Positions 50,063 to 58,277 of a stretch of 64,000 nucleotides of DNA are shown in pieces. The stretch is taken from positions 62,001 through 126,000 of the forward strand of contig NZ_PVUE01000003.1 in assembly GCF_003003235.1 (NCBI RefSeq). The letters are read 5' to 3'. The stretch's first letter is position 1; each line of letters starts with the position of its first letter. Under the pieces are notes generated by a model. That model saw only the letters and a list, made by a program, of their open reading frames with translations, was not told the DNA's origin and did no database searches. This DNA comes from Antricoccus suffuscus. GTDB taxonomy: Bacteria > Actinomycetota > Actinomycetes > Mycobacteriales > Antricoccaceae. Position numbers and translations under genes: made by a program.

Positions 50063-51382
50063 ATGGCGGTGGCGATGGACATGCAGCGGTCGCGGGTAAC
50101 GGTTTTCGCGCCGACCGGGCGCGCAGATCTTGCGGTGCCCAACAGGGTGCCACTGGCGCTGCTGCTGCCGTTTCTCTTCGATGAGCTCAAGATAAAAGGC
50201 AACCTCAGCGCCGAGACGTGGGAGGTCGCCGGCGTCGATGGCCGGGCGATCAGCCGGGACGTGGGTCTGCGCGACGCGGACATTCGGGACGGCGACCTGC
50301 TGTTCGTACGCCGCGCCGAGACCGACGATCTGGAGCGCTACGACGATGTCGCGGAGATCATCAGCGAAGAGGCTACGCAGGCCAACTGGCTTCCGCGGCA
50401 TACCGCCATCGCGGGAATGGCCTTCGGTGTCATCACCATGTTGCTGGCGGTCGTGGGTGTCACGGCCAGCCTCGAACCGACCCAGCGAGTGTTGATCGGA
50501 GCCGGAGCGATCGCGGCCCTCTGGGTGGCCGCATACGTGGCGACGACGTGCGCTGATACGCGGCAACACGCGTTAGTGGCGGTAGTGCTCGCGGTGTGTT
50601 GGGCTGCGGTCACCGGTAACGCCATTGCCGGTGGTGGATTCGATGGCGCTGGCGTACTGGCCGCCGCGGTCGCCGTCGAAGCGGTATGCGTGCTCGGTTG
50701 CCTGCTGCTCGGCGTGAGGGGACCGTTGCCGTACGCCGCATCGGCGTTTTCGGCCTTCGCCGCCACGGGCGGACTGGTACTACTCGCGACCGGTCAGCGT
50801 TCGCTGGCGGCTGCGATTGTAGGTGCCGCGGGCATAGTAGCGCTCGTGGGCGCACCATCGTTGGCGCTGCGACTGAGCGGGGTCAGTGCGCTGGACAATC
50901 GGCAGGATCACGACGGTGCGATACCGATCGACCAGGCGAGGGGGAGCGTACGGCGGGCCGCCCAGGCGTTATCCGGACTGGTCACCGGCATCGCCGCCGC
51001 GATGGCAGGGGCGGTCTTCGTCCTCACTCGTGGCGATGACTCGACGGCGCATGCATTGGCGGCGGTAGTAGTTGCGTTGACGTTGATCCGGGCCCAAACA
51101 TTCCGGGATCGCCGGCAGGTAGGTGCGCTGGTCGGCTGCGGACTCTGCGGACTAATCGCATTAATATCAGTGATCTCCTGGACAGACCCGCTGATGCTCA
51201 GCGCACTAGGCATCATTGTCGCAGGCTGCTTCCTGACGAACGTCGCGGTAGTGCTGCAATGGCGGGCCCACCGGCTACGCCGACTCGGCGACATCGTCGA
51301 GATGATGCTGATGGTCGCCGTAACGCCAGTGGTGCTTGCGATCGGCGGCGTCTATGGTGCCGTCTTGAACCTGTGGGACTAG
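50063..51382 (+). CDS. eccD: Type VII secretion membrane channel protein EccD
   Basis: A 439-residue protein. Residues ~8-95 are a ubiquitin-like YukD domain (RVTVFAPTGRADLAVPNRVP). About eleven hydrophobic helices follow, e.g. HTAIAGMAFGVITMLLAVV and IIVAGCFLTNVAVVLQW. EccD is the central membrane component of ESX systems. ATG 50063 has several in-frame alternatives close by (50075, 50081). Followed 4 bp later by eccB. Confidence 0.88.
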   Translation: MAVAMDMQRSRVTVFAPTGRADLAVPNRVPLALLLPFLFDELKIKGNLSAETWEVAGVDGRAISRDVGLRDADIRDGDLLFVRRAETDDLERYDDVAEIISEEATQANWLPRHTAIAGMAFGVITMLLAVVGVTASLEPTQRVLIGAGAIAALWVAAYVATTCADTRQHALVAVVLAVCWAAVTGNAIAGGGFDGAGVLAAAVAVEAVCVLGCLLLGVRGPLPYAASAFSAFAATGGLVLLATGQRSLAAAIVGAAGIVALVGAPSLALRLSGVSALDNRQDHDGAIPIDQARGSVRRAAQALSGLVTGIAAAMAGAVFVLTRGDDSTAHALAAVVVALTLIRAQTFRDRRQVGALVGCGLCGLIALISVISWTDPLMLSALGIIVAGCFLTNVAVVLQWRAHRLRRLGDIVEMMLMVAVTPVVLAIGGVYGAVLNLWD

Positions 51383-51386
51383 CCAA

Positions 51387-52469
51387 GTGACAACCCCCGC
51401 AGCCGAGGCCGAGGCGCAGTCGTACGCCGCGCGCCGGCGTACAGCCGCACTCCTCAGTGGTGACCCCGACCTGACGCGAGATCCGATTCGGCGGGCACGA
51501 CGCACGGCCGTTGCCAGTCTCGTCCTCGCGTGCGTGACGGTCGCGGCCGTCGCGCTCGTCGGCTTCATGACCGGGCTGAGTACGGCCGAAATCCCCGACA
51601 ACGGCTCTATCGCGGTGAAGGGGAGCACCGATAGGTACGTCGTCATCGACGGGGTTGTGCACCCCGCGCTCAACCTCGGTTCGGCGATGTTGGCTGGCGG
51701 CGGCAAGATCACCACGGTCGGCGCGGAGGCGGTCGCGCAGGCGCCAAAGGGACCACCGGTCGGGATACCGGGCGCACCGGACGTGCTTCCGCGCTCAGAG
51801 CAGTTCGCGCATGGCCCCTGGACTGTCTGTGCGACAGCGGATCCGCAGCGGTTGCACCTGATCATCGGGTTGCCGCCTCCTAAGCCGCTCGCCGCCGGCA
51901 CGGCCGCCGTCATCCGAGATAGCGCGGGGGCCGCGTGGCTTCTGGCTGCGGACGGGCGTTATCGGCTGCCCGCCCAGACGCAGGCGATTCTGGGGCTGAG
52001 CGATTCGCCGAGTGTCGTGCTGTCCGACGACCTGTTGGGCGTAATACCGATCCGTGCCACAGCAATATCGACGAGTTCGGGCTCCCCGTTCGACCTGATC
52101 GTGCAGCCCGAGTCCCCGCTGTGCCTGTCTATTCCCGAGGACGGCACGGGGCCGACGTCAGTCGCGCTCCCGGCCACCGTCCCTGCGCGGGAGGGCATCG
52201 CCGCCGTCGCGGTCGGCGGACCGGGCACCGCGGAGTCGGCCACTATCGCCGGCAGCGGCGCGTTGGTGTATGACGGCGACGTACCGGAGCCAGATCGGGT
52301 CTACTGGTTGGTGACCGACAGCGCAATGAGCTACCGATTTGTCTCCCAAGATGCCGTCCGCGGGCTCGGGTACGACGTCGGGAGTGCGCGCGCGGTCCCG
52401 GCCGCACTGATAGCCCTGTTCCCCTCAGGTCCGGCGCTCGATCCGAAGGCCGCCGCATCGACTGGGTAG
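51387..52469 (+). CDS. eccB: Type VII secretion protein EccB (short form)
   Basis: A 360-residue protein: cytoplasmic N-terminus (RRRTAALLSGDPDLTRDPIR), one transmembrane helix (VASLVLACVTVAAVALVGFM) and a periplasmic repeat domain typical of EccB (VVIDGVVHPALNLGSAMLAG). Usual EccB length is ~480 residues, so part of the periplasmic domain is missing. GTG start at 51387, 4 bp after eccD. Together with eccC and eccD it forms a core membrane set, but EccE, mycosin and WXG100 genes are not seen here. Confidence 0.85.
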   Translation: MTTPAAEAEAQSYAARRRTAALLSGDPDLTRDPIRRARRTAVASLVLACVTVAAVALVGFMTGLSTAEIPDNGSIAVKGSTDRYVVIDGVVHPALNLGSAMLAGGGKITTVGAEAVAQAPKGPPVGIPGAPDVLPRSEQFAHGPWTVCATADPQRLHLIIGLPPPKPLAAGTAAVIRDSAGAAWLLAADGRYRLPAQTQAILGLSDSPSVVLSDDLLGVIPIRATAISTSSGSPFDLIVQPESPLCLSIPEDGTGPTSVALPATVPAREGIAAVAVGGPGTAESATIAGSGALVYDGDVPEPDRVYWLVTDSAMSYRFVSQDAVRGLGYDVGSARAVPAALIALFPSGPALDPKAAASTG

Positions 52470-55849: not shown

Positions 55850-56608
55850 TTATTGCAGGAAGAAATCGGCCAGGATCGGCGCGACGACCTCATGCGCAAC
55901 GGGGTGCCCCTGACCTGGAACCATCTTGGCGCGCGCACCCGGAATAGCAGCCGCGACCGCGGTGGCCGACTCAAGCGCCCAGCCCTGACTGTCTCCGCCA
56001 TACAGTGCGAGAGTCTCGGCCGAAATATGCGCCAACTCCTCCGAAGGGACGGTGCCGTCCCCGGCCAGTCTGAGGTCGTACGGGAGAGTGTGGGCGAGGG
56101 CGACGAGGCTCGGCCAGAACGGTGCATGTTTCCAGCCGTCGTTGTATGGCGCGCCGGTGGATCGCATCCACTCTGCCACGGCCTCGTCGCGGTTGTCGTC
56201 GGCCAGCAACTTCTCGATGTGTTCGGGGAACCCTGGCTTCGGTTCGACACAGAACGGGGGTTCGTATACGGCAACTTTGGCAAATCCCGGCGTGCTGTGC
56301 GCGGCGCGGAGGGCGAGGATCCCGCCACTTGAGTGTCCGTAAAGGTTCGCTGACCCACCGGTGACCTGCAGGACCGCACGCAGGTCTTCGACCTCGCGTG
56401 CAACCGAATACGACGTGCTGTCGCCGCTGCTGCCGCGACCTCGTCGGTCGTATCTGTACACGGTGAACTGGTCGGCAAGAAGATCGACGAGAGGGCCGAC
56501 AGATTGGCTGGCGGACAACGCGCCTACCGTCAGAATTAGGGCGTCTCCCGCACCTGCCGATTGATAGGCGATGGGGGTGCCGTCGGCGGAAGCTACTGTG
56601 TCGGCCAA
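55850..56608 (-). CDS. Alpha/beta hydrolase
   Basis: A 252-residue protein starting with TTG at 56608 (RBS GAAGGAA ~8 nt upstream). The nucleophile elbow is YGHSSGGILALRA, the oxyanion region follows LILTVGALSASQ, and the catalytic His is in MVPGQGHPVAHEV. It resembles small esterase/epoxide-hydrolase-type proteins of unknown substrate. It follows the retron-type RT gene by 103 bp on the same strand and might share its transcript. Confidence 0.88.
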   Translation of the reverse strand: MADTVASADGTPIAYQSAGAGDALILTVGALSASQSVGPLVDLLADQFTVYRYDRRGRGSSGDSTSYSVAREVEDLRAVLQVTGGSANLYGHSSGGILALRAAHSTPGFAKVAVYEPPFCVEPKPGFPEHIEKLLADDNRDEAVAEWMRSTGAPYNDGWKHAPFWPSLVALAHTLPYDLRLAGDGTVPSEELAHISAETLALYGGDSQGWALESATAVAAAIPGARAKMVPGQGHPVAHEVVAPILADFFLQ

Positions 56609-56711: not shown

Positions 56712-58022
56712 CTAGAACGACCAGTCGATAGCGTCGAACAGGGCACGCAGGCGTGCCCCCCGCGCCGGATCGTGCTGCGCGACCCACGCGATCCGTCCGC
56801 GCAGATGGCCCTCGAAGTCCGGTACGCCGGCACGGTTCTGTGTGCTCGGCCCGTCCCTGCGACAGTTGTGCAGCACCGCGCGTAACAGGTCGACCTCGGC
56901 GCGCGAAACATGCGGCCGTTCGTTGACGACCAGACCGCCGAGTACCTGACGTGAGTGCGCCGGTAGCACGGCGGTCTTGCGGTCGTTGAGCCGAAAGCCT
57001 TCATCACGCACGATGTCGCCGACCAGTGCGACCAACCGCGAGACGTCGCCACGCCAGCCGATCCCTCCAGATAGCGCGAGATCGTCGGCGTACCGGGTGT
57101 ACCGCCCGCCCCAGGAGGACGCCAGGGCGCTGAGCCGGACGTCGAGCCGATGGGCGGCGAGGTTCGCCAGCGCGGGGGAGGTCGGTGCGCCCTGCGGCAG
57201 ATGTGGTCCGGCCAGCCGGCGGCCGAGGCGCCAGTGTGCTTCGCGCAGGTCAGGATTGGCCGGCGGCGAGATCGCGTTCCACTCTGCGCGAGGTAGCACC
57301 GTTGTCGCCAGCCCGGTCAGGGCATGCGCGACCGGCTCCGGATAGCCGGCGCTTCGCAAGATGCCGTAGACGCGGCCCGCGGTGATGCTTGCAAAGAATC
57401 CTTCGAGGTCCATCCGTACGACGACTGGCTGTCCGCCGTGCGGCGCGGCGTAGCTGGCGACGGAGCGCCCGGCGCGGAACCCATGTGCCGCGTCGTGTGC
57501 GGGAATCCGGTCGAGGATCTCAGTAAGGAACCGTCGCTGGTGACTCTTGAGCCGGTACTTCGGCGCCTCGAGAACGCGGACGGCGCCACTCGCTGCGACT
57601 TTCGTGGTGACCCGGTAATGGCGCAGCCGCCGGTCTGTCGTCGATCTCGCCCAGTGCCGCGGGTCGGTGAACCACGCCAGCTCCGTGGCGCCCAGGTCCA
57701 GCATCTCGGCGAGGTCGCCTAAGCCGTGCAGCGCGGGCAGATGCCACGGGTTGCTGGTCATTTGGGTAGTTGCGGCCGGCCAGGCGATCGGTCTTGCCGA
57801 CTTAGCGCCACCGGCGGCCGGACGTGAGCCGATGACGACGGCAAGTTCGCGGGACCGATCCAGCGGCGCCGCCGGGTAGACGGCCAAGATCTGCCTGATC
57901 AGCGCCGGCAGCCAGGGGGTCGGTCCCTGGACAACGGGAACGGCGCTGTCGAACAGCCCCGACGACGTCCACTCACCAGACAGGAACGCTCCGGCGAGAG
58001 CGGTGGCGAGGTCCTTTCTCAC
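56712..58022 (-). CDS. Retron-type reverse transcriptase
   Basis: A 436-residue RNA-directed DNA polymerase. RT motifs in order: HGFRAGRSVASYAAPHGG (180-197), MDLEGFFASITAGR (204-217), LPQGAPTSPALANLAAHRLD (275-294), the catalytic YADD (311-314) and GFRLNDRKTAVL (342-353). VLGGLVVN (360-367) stands where retron RTs carry their VTG motif. This points to the retron/retron-like clade rather than group II introns, and no maturase or endonuclease domain is present. GTG 58022 has AGGG 5 nt upstream. A structured region with 13-bp inverted repeats lies directly before it. Confidence 0.93.
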   Translation of the reverse strand: MRKDLATALAGAFLSGEWTSSGLFDSAVPVVQGPTPWLPALIRQILAVYPAAPLDRSRELAVVIGSRPAAGGAKSARPIAWPAATTQMTSNPWHLPALHGLGDLAEMLDLGATELAWFTDPRHWARSTTDRRLRHYRVTTKVAASGAVRVLEAPKYRLKSHQRRFLTEILDRIPAHDAAHGFRAGRSVASYAAPHGGQPVVVRMDLEGFFASITAGRVYGILRSAGYPEPVAHALTGLATTVLPRAEWNAISPPANPDLREAHWRLGRRLAGPHLPQGAPTSPALANLAAHRLDVRLSALASSWGGRYTRYADDLALSGGIGWRGDVSRLVALVGDIVRDEGFRLNDRKTAVLPAHSRQVLGGLVVNERPHVSRAEVDLLRAVLHNCRRDGPSTQNRAGVPDFEGHLRGRIAWVAQHDPARGARLRALFDAIDWSF

Positions 58023-58041
58023 AGCAGCCCTGGATGATTGA

Positions 58042-58214
58042 GATGCGGCAGCGTCGCTCGACCATTCCTGTCGTGCGCGCGACTAGCTGCCGCGAAGCGC
58101 AGTGCCTCGCGCGTGGTGAGGTGCCCGGCCATGCCGGTTGACCCCGGGGTAGCCCCGGGGACGTCGTTCGACGTCGTACGCCGATCGACATTCTCGAACC
58201 AACGCTGCCGCATC
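58042..58214 (-). ncRNA. Candidate retron msr-msd RNA with a1/a2 repeats
   Basis: On the minus strand GATGCGGCAGCGT (58202-58214) and its exact complement ACGCTGCCGCATC (58042-58054) bracket 147 nt, like the a1/a2 ends of retron RNAs. Inside lie GACGTCG-AA-CGACGTC (58160-58175), CCCCGGGG-CTA-CCCCGGGG (58142-58160), CCGGC-ATG-GCCGG (58125-58137) and a 7-bp stem (58076-58082 with 58107-58113). The end is 20 nt from the RT start. The same DNA could also encode a 64-residue peptide (58019-58213) whose TGA overlaps the RT GTG, so coding and RNA roles compete. Confidence 0.5.
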
Positions 58215-58277
58215 GCACCAGGGTAGGCGACGCATAGGGTGGAGCGGCATTGCACGGACGACAGGCTGAGGGAGTAG

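Follow-up and report, generated by a model that had tools for sequence, protein, structure and literature searches.

The question raised by this locus is whether a reverse transcriptase (RT) gene and the structured stretch directly upstream of it together constitute a retron and, if so, what partner that retron works with. An earlier note on the window, i.e. the whole 64,000-nucleotide stretch of Antricoccus suffuscus DNA that was analysed, proposed a new retron in which the RT is accompanied by an msr-msd RNA bounded by a1/a2 repeats, either with an unusual partner or as an RT-only system. The protein, the RNA, their relatives and their neighbours are considered in turn below.

A reverse transcriptase of the retron clade

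The features of the RT gene are as follows.

56712..58022, minus strand: retron RT, 436 aa with a GTG start, assigned from PADLOC, Pfam RVT_1, AlphaFold2 and structural matches
57081..57092, minus strand: catalytic YADD, residues 311-314, with Y311, D313 and D314 invariant in 33 aligned members
56934..56942, minus strand: VTG-equivalent triplet LGG, residues 361-363, in VLGGLVVN, placed by alignment of 33 members
57798..58022, minus strand: N-terminal five-helix domain of the RT, residues 1-75, a confident separate unit in the AlphaFold2 model

The translated ORF contains QGAPTSP, YADD and VLGGLVVN, all of the motifs on which the earlier note had based its assignment. Two PADLOC profiles, RT_other (556.5 bits) and RT_outgroup (528.3 bits), match the whole protein including its N-terminal extension, and both are matched by 33 of the 33 clade members scanned; other PADLOC profiles score lower, with type XIII (RT_XIII) at 288 bits and RT_Ec107-like at 169 bits. 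The RT also carries Pfam RVT_1, and a PDB sequence search (E≤0.001) returned 14 distinct sequences, 12 named as retron and two only as RNA-directed DNA polymerase. When an AlphaFold2 model built from 24 sequences (mean pLDDT 90.9) was ranked against solved structures, Ec86 chain 7v9x_A came first (Z 25.9, rmsd 9.3, 303 aligned) and 7v9u_A also ranked highly (Z 24.9, rmsd 2.3, 243 aligned); the other twelve of the first 14 matches were retron RTs as well (Z 19.3-25.3). The best group II intron RT scored Z 18.4, and one retron RT chain, 9l7p_E, reached only Z 15.0, below some group II RTs. As modelled, the RT folds like solved retron RTs, and the PADLOC profiles, PDB matches and fold ranking place it in the retron clade.

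Two motifs depart from their canonical forms. The VTG triplet (motif 7) was not found in the window RT, which has LGG in its place; relatives carry VTG, LTG, LAG, VLG or LGG there, and G363 and N367 are invariant in 33 members. This alteration had been singled out beforehand as noteworthy, a view that does not hold up, as VTG is found in 47% of surveyed retron RTs and is therefore not obligate (PMC4244168, excerpt), and several clade members keep VTG. It also deviates in two validated retrons (PMC6868368, excerpt). The region X motif NAXXH, which has a frequency of 59% among retron RTs (PMC4244168, excerpt), is present in the relaxed form YAAPH at residues 191-195, with two of the three fixed letters retained and Asn replaced by Tyr. 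Among aligned members Ala192 is nearly invariant, while His195 and the motif-3 Asp205 are invariant.

Over ten RT pairs dN/dS ranged from 0.14 to 0.32, with values of 0.14-0.25 for the relatives among themselves and of 0.28 and 0.32 for the window RT against L031 and L033 respectively. These ratios and the reading frame indicate that the RT is intact and under purifying selection. Elsewhere in the clade, the RT of L057 (Amycolatopsis arida) has about 200 Pro/Ser/Asp-rich residues inserted in frame between the middle motifs, and broken or stop-containing RT copies occur in four genomes (G494, G498, G504 and G533) and at L029 and L030; such split or stop-containing copies suggest repeated loss.

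The upstream RNA and its conservation

The features in front of the RT are listed in the order of transcription.

58220..58225, minus strand: -10-like promoter box TACCCT, placed for a transcription start at or next to a1
58042..58214, minus strand: retron non-coding RNA (msr-msd), 173 nt, matched by the covariance model at 58043-58213 with 167.2 bits
58202..58214, minus strand: a1 arm, perfect 13-bp repeat, covarying helix 1
58194..58198, minus strand: inner extension, a1 side (TTCGA), pairing with 58057-58061 with one G-U
58193, minus strand: predicted priming (branch) guanosine, first base past the a1/a2 duplex, from alignment and a published rule
58162..58190, minus strand: msr stem-loop 1, variable and covarying, 7 of 10 pairs changed on both sides (n=19)
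58141..58161, minus strand: msr stem-loop 2, near-invariant, 9-bp stem and 3-nt loop, candidate RT-recognition hairpin
58125..58137, minus strand: msr stem-loop 3, 4 bp, weak outside close relatives
58075..58114, minus strand: msd hairpin, covarying helices 8-10
58062, minus strand: predicted first template base for reverse transcription, beside the a2-side duplex, from the layout
58057..58061, minus strand: inner extension, a2 side (TCGAG), helix 2
58042..58054, minus strand: a2 arm, partner of a1, covarying helix 1, ending 19-20 nt ahead of the RT start at 58022

The earlier description of a 173-nt region bounded by a perfect 13-bp inverted repeat that ends 20 nt from the RT start is correct to the base, and the four further stems it reported within that region were also recovered. 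Retron RNAs are described as having 8-30 nt of end pairing, a priming G in or right after the duplex, and 1-3 msr hairpins with 7-10-bp stems followed by one msd hairpin (PMC6868368, excerpt), and every element of this published layout has a counterpart in the predicted window RNA. The ends pair through 13 perfect bp plus five inner pairs, all within a covarying duplex, and stem-loops 1 and 2 fit the hairpin description, while stem-loop 3 has only 4 bp. The predicted priming G fits by position, although its context in the window is CGAGA and not the common TAGC; the first base after the duplex is G in most of 33 loci read by eye, where it follows CGA, CAG or TGA. RT-Eco1 and RT-Eco3 need or bind an 8-9-bp stem with a 3-base loop (PMC6868368, excerpt), and by analogy stem-loop 2 is the natural candidate for RT recognition.

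A box of the form TANNNT lies 3-22 nt before a1 in all 19 model sequences (shuffled mean 0.7, maximum 3) and in 27 of 45 further loci (shuffled mean 2.5, maximum 7). On Burkholderia replicons (L062, L063 and L066) the cassette has a TTGACA -35 and a TTAAAG- or TTACAG-type -10 before a1. A generic sigma-70 scan gave no promoter at the window locus and a generic terminator scan gave none near the RT. The RNA seems to have its own promoter, and the position of the -10-like box together with the Burkholderia -35 makes it most likely that transcription starts at a1.

The fold of 58023-58235 is more stable than that of dinucleotide shuffles (z -4.87, with 0 of 200 as good). A perfect repeat of at least 13 bp with a spacing of 120-240 appeared in 1 of 300 shuffles and in 2 of 159 window tiles (400 nt), one of which is the tile with this repeat, so the inverted repeat alone is only moderately unlikely. 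The RNA is accepted as real because of its conservation and covariation in relatives and not because of the repeat alone.

These relatives came from a whole-genome search, in which 34 of 101 genomes matched, the source included, and 30 loci were kept (one being that of the window), and from a contig search that added 30 more loci. An alignment of 19 sequences, comprising the window, a Frankineae MAG, Leekyejoonella and 16 Nocardioides, shows sharp conservation from a1 to a2 and little outside except the promoter box. This alignment was the basis of a covariance model, R1, so that the window RNA is itself one of the model sequences; R1 has a single match in the window at E 0.01 and a single match in the source genome at E 1 among 150 scored candidates. 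The earlier note had proposed modelling the upstream regions of homologues in this way, and had held that homologues lacking the repeats would argue against a retron. When R1 was run on 65 sources (564 kb) at E 0.01, the RNA was instead present in 62 loci, once each, upstream of the RT and on its strand. Of these, 43 lie outside the model set and include Pseudonocardiaceae, Acidimicrobiales, Burkholderia, Tsukamurella, Dietzia, Caulobacteraceae and Rhodocyclaceae.

Covariation across the loci is strong. In the 62-sequence alignment, which was fitted to the model structure, 92.5% of cells are paired, 48 of 53 pairs changed on both sides, and covariation scores 0.512, compared with 0.157 after shuffling and no more than 0.065 after sliding; the 19 sequences alone give 15 of 53 pairs changed on both sides and a score of 0.174 against 0.111. 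Helix 2, the inner extension of a1/a2, has 5/5 pairs changed on both sides and 96.6% of cells paired, and stem-loop 3 (helix 7) has just 74.5% of cells paired in the larger set. Because the 62-sequence alignment was fitted to the model, own and foreign arms were also compared: in 40 of the 43 loci outside the model no foreign a2 pairs better with a1 than the a2 of the same locus does, own arms pairing on average at 12.5 of 14 positions against 8.2 for a foreign a2, with positions placed by the model. A model-free repeat search likewise gave a1/a2 pairs at the same spacing in most loci.

The three sources in which R1 had no match at E 0.01 are L048 (which begins inside the RT), L051 and L059. 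In L051 the best R1 matches lie elsewhere (24 bits, against 13 bits at the expected place), and a1/a2 and hairpins are readable by eye. One further locus, L088, has a clade RT (48% identical) with no retron RNA upstream, where the sequence resembles the end of an ABC-transporter gene. In the genomes of one genus, a genome-wide R1 search scoring 150 candidates per genome found the RNA in 5/17 and the RT is in 11/17; when the 11 loci were examined directly, R1 found the RNA in ten, all but L088. R1 had no match in seven reference retron loci of other types. Rfam gave no match at the gathering score and one unrelated sub-threshold match outside the RNA, and no description of this RNA was found in the literature searched, albeit it may still be described elsewhere.

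The central proposal, a retron consisting of an RT and an msr-msd RNA bounded by a1/a2, is thus borne out by a covarying RNA upstream of the RT in 62 of 65 loci. The window locus is very likely a real retron, and there is little room for doubt that it pairs a retron RNA with its cognate RT.

Distribution, mobility and placement among known retrons

The clade is mostly actinobacterial, with some proteobacteria. In a phylum-wide sample the RT was matched by 21 of 396 genomes at E 0.001 and by only five, among them the source, below 1e-50. Some groups have it more often, with matches in 27 of 56 genomes of one family, 34 of 101 around the source (itself included) and 11 of 17 in one genus, counts that were also taken at E 0.001 and include some weak or broken matches. 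In the source genome both the RT of this kind and the RNA are single-copy.

Comparison with classified types, which the earlier note had suggested, set the clade apart from seven references as one branch of 57 members (100/100). The nearest typed branch is the single type XIII reference, and only weakly so (95/58). Each reference in this tree carries the type of its highest-scoring PADLOC profile; both I-C references entered it trimmed to 340 residues, and the sequence for type XIII is incomplete. Eight loci with broken, partial or odd RTs were omitted (L022, L025, L029, L030, L048, L057, L058 and L059). Within the clade the RTs group mostly by bacterial family with some mixing, and the window RT is 62-66% identical to the Nocardioides and Leekyejoonella copies compared with 43-58% for good matches in other surrounding genomes, so both descent and transfer are likely.

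Pairwise locus alignments, made from same-strand pieces of at least 60 bases with a shift below 3500, delimit the unit that is conserved. In 14 of 20 pairs the loci align over one stretch alone, from the promoter or a1 to near the RT stop, beginning about 190-260 nt before the start used (values for L063 and L066 are shifted, being referenced to the match start); the remaining six pairs also share flanking synteny. In one genus the unit, 80-81% identical, lies between two convergent ORFs in L187 and L188 and about 0.7 kb further on in L070. The sequence that flanks the unit picks up again within 5-7 nt of either end in L188; in L187 it does so within about 10 nt at one end, while about 1.0 kb of other DNA intervenes at the opposite end. 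By these alignments the unit behaves as a cassette of promoter, RNA and RT. Near one such cassette, a stretch of about 65 nt occurs upstream of the retron, in two copies some 2 kb from each other in L038 (-2439..-2371 and -363..-300) and in one copy in its sister locus L034 (-295..-227).

Carriage as phage cargo was considered and rejected. On viral contigs the best relative reaches 41% identity across part of the RT, and the others among the best 80 of 346 matches lie at 25-36%; in a phage collection nine records matched, all below 60% identity and none covering 80%.

The suggestion of a new type is not supported for the RT, since two full-length PADLOC retron profiles match it and it is therefore not a new kind. 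These profiles, RT_other (PDLC02949) and RT_outgroup (PDLC03740), are read as untyped and describe the RT alone. As the RT profiles are known, the RNA is absent from Rfam and retrons lacking an obvious linked effector are in print, the locus is filed among retrons that have no linked effector, within an untyped clade. Type X or another typed retron is rejected on the lower profile scores. For type XIII, the next best profile though well below RT_other, the separation is less firm: the comparison covers one partial reference, which the clade excludes (100/100) and in whose locus R1 finds no RNA. Retron-Eco5 (Ec107) is likewise intergenic, with no signs of mobility (PMC6868368, excerpt), but the RT_Ec107-like profile falls far short of RT_other (169 against 556 bits). 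Type III-A resembles the window locus in having a retron RT and, in three PRTase-bearing references, an intergenic gap of about 200-300 nt before it, but in those three a PRTase gene lies upstream and there is none at the window locus.

We know of no effector gene for the myxobacterial retrons Mx162, Mx65, Sa163 and Ne144. These four, compared by description only, also have an extended N-terminus, and Mx162 and Sa163 are thought to be vertically inherited (PMC6868368, excerpt). Myxobacterial retrons prime in CAGC or GAGC contexts (PMC6868368, excerpt), and GAGC occupies the same place in the Kibdelosporangium copies L050, L052 and L053, although the Mx162 transcript is longer, at 241 nt against about 173 nt for the window RNA. 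The likeness in long N-terminus and stable inheritance may serve as a lead.

The search for a partner and the proposed mechanism

Across 56 loci, with neighbours taken within about 5-6 kb per side (some contigs are shorter), the RT family was present in 55, and no other gene family occurred in more than seven, each such family being confined to a syntenic block. Families were formed from ORFs of at least 80 aa that passed a codon-composition filter, by BLASTP at E 1e-6 over half of the shorter length. A hidden small partner gene was sought in open stretches of at least 25 aa up to 1.2 kb downstream and up to 1 kb upstream of the RT and was rejected, as the only families found were limited to syntenic species (at most seven of 55 loci). 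As a positive control, the same RT query recovered a PRTase effector beside the RT in three of four references with a III-A-like RT, the fourth (L095) having other neighbours. In the window, none of ten neighbouring proteins matched a PADLOC family and no fused effector domain was recognised in the RT by Pfam or PDB fold search, in agreement with the earlier observation that no known effector is fused or adjacent. Its RT-only alternative gains support from the lack of a shared neighbour, and we are highly confident that no effector is linked to retrons of the window type. Since there is no shared partner, and copies at unrelated sites are alike only from the promoter or a1 to the RT end, the locus is read as a two-part retron with no linked effector. 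A solitary two-component retron that has no effector encoded with it is the best explanation and, in our judgement, a strongly favoured one.

Some neighbours recur locally. In seven Nocardioides loci (L033, L035, L037, L039, L040, L041 and L060) DnaK-, GrpE- and DnaJ-like genes, joined in six of the loci by an HspR-like gene, lie upstream of the unit and in line with it. In another seven (L050, L052, L053, L054, L057, L058 and L077), six of them from Pseudonocardiaceae, a dnaE2-like gene precedes the unit, and in several of these USP-like or pentapeptide-repeat genes come after the RT. The DnaK, GrpE, DnaJ, HspR and dnaE2 names come from reading translations and not from a family search, and as clues to function the dnaK-grpE-dnaJ-like and dnaE2-like neighbours were set aside, with seven loci each and neither being general. 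Elsewhere in the window, two ORFs at 50063-52469 presumably resemble the type VII secretion components EccD and EccB; they had no PADLOC match.

The alternative that survives best, albeit as an unlikely one, is a tripartite retron with its effector gene at another site in the genome, acting in abortive-infection defence through an unlinked toxin. Several solved retrons are complexed with an effector or have a fused domain, which counts for this reading, and the purifying selection on the RT implies a job. Retrons are also described as having a toxic effector in addition to the RT and the non-coding RNA (PMC12548924, excerpt). Copies at unrelated sites, in many families as well as Burkholderia, nevertheless share only the RNA and RT, which weakens the case because a toxin gene that is not linked would tend to be left behind when the retron is transferred.

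Less probable still, and improbable in absolute terms, is that the RT's own N-terminal helical domain is the effector. Residues 1-75 are modelled with confidence as a separate five-helix unit and can be aligned in most members, but the domain has no Pfam match and no convincing PDB fold, and its columns are less conserved (45% mean identity, n=21) than those of whole proteins (60%, n=24). In L017 and L054 the RNA match ends 11-16 nt before a start equivalent to window residue ~90-100, which leaves no room for the domain. In L049, L050 and L052 the protein start used falls within the RNA match, so the first aligned residues there are probably untranslated. An enzymatic role for the domain was likewise rejected for want of a Pfam or convincing PDB match, a missing fold listing being no proof.

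The nearest candidate by position is the following gene.

55850-56608, minus strand: alpha/beta hydrolase gene, 103 bp downstream of the RT

It is indeed on the same strand at the distance first noted, provided that it starts at 56608 (the ORF is open further upstream), but a homologous ORF lies within about 5 kb of the RT in none of the 55 other loci and the protein has no PADLOC match. The earlier question of whether the hydrolase always accompanies the RT is answered in the negative, and hardly any weight is left for it as the partner. Equally negligible is the idea that the structure is decaying or due to chance, with what is left of an RT preceded by a GC-rich leader able to fold. The broken copies in relatives and the unexceptional inverted repeat would allow this, but the intact motifs, low dN/dS and compensatory changes contradict it.

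For the solitary two-component retron, the RNA with its structure, the promoter-like box, the RT, their linkage and the lack of a shared neighbour can all be read from the DNA of the window and its relatives. The steps that would follow begin with the retron's own promoter firing at a1 to give an RNA of about 173 nt, in which a1 would pair with a2 and the msr hairpins, above all stem-loop 2, would bind the RT. The 2'-OH of guanosine 58193 would then prime copying of the msd hairpin into single-stranded DNA, and the product would be msDNA held by the RT. We infer RT binding, priming and msDNA synthesis from the sequence, and it is highly probable that the locus makes msDNA. As for its biological role, we would guess at a function probably connected with phage defence or DNA stress, the RT-msDNA complex serving to sense or restrain either a host protein or an unlinked effector.

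It is a tentative proposal, with the balance somewhat against it, that the retron works wholly without a dedicated effector, the remaining probability falling to an unlinked partner or another role. In the same tentative vein, promoter, msr-msd RNA and RT may be the whole heritable unit, and the msDNA-RT particle may itself act on a host protein or process that is conserved.

In the usual description a retron guards a toxic effector (PMC12548924, excerpt), although some retrons show no clear association with an effector gene and may have other functions (PMC8867640, excerpt). The present clade makes it possible to study how a retron acts by itself and, if the proposal is true, would represent a kind of retron in which the DNA made by reverse transcription is the agent that acts and does not stand guard over a toxin. 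Its two-part cassettes measure about 1.5 kb, have defined ends and are under purifying selection; a covariance model is available for them, as are many natural presence/absence pairs within one family, and these cassettes and pairs make the role of effectorless retrons directly testable. Current retron tools come mostly from proteobacteria. The clade brings in retron RNAs that are GC-rich and actinobacterial and have a candidate hairpin for recognition as well as a candidate promoter; they could be put to use in such hosts as producers of msDNA.
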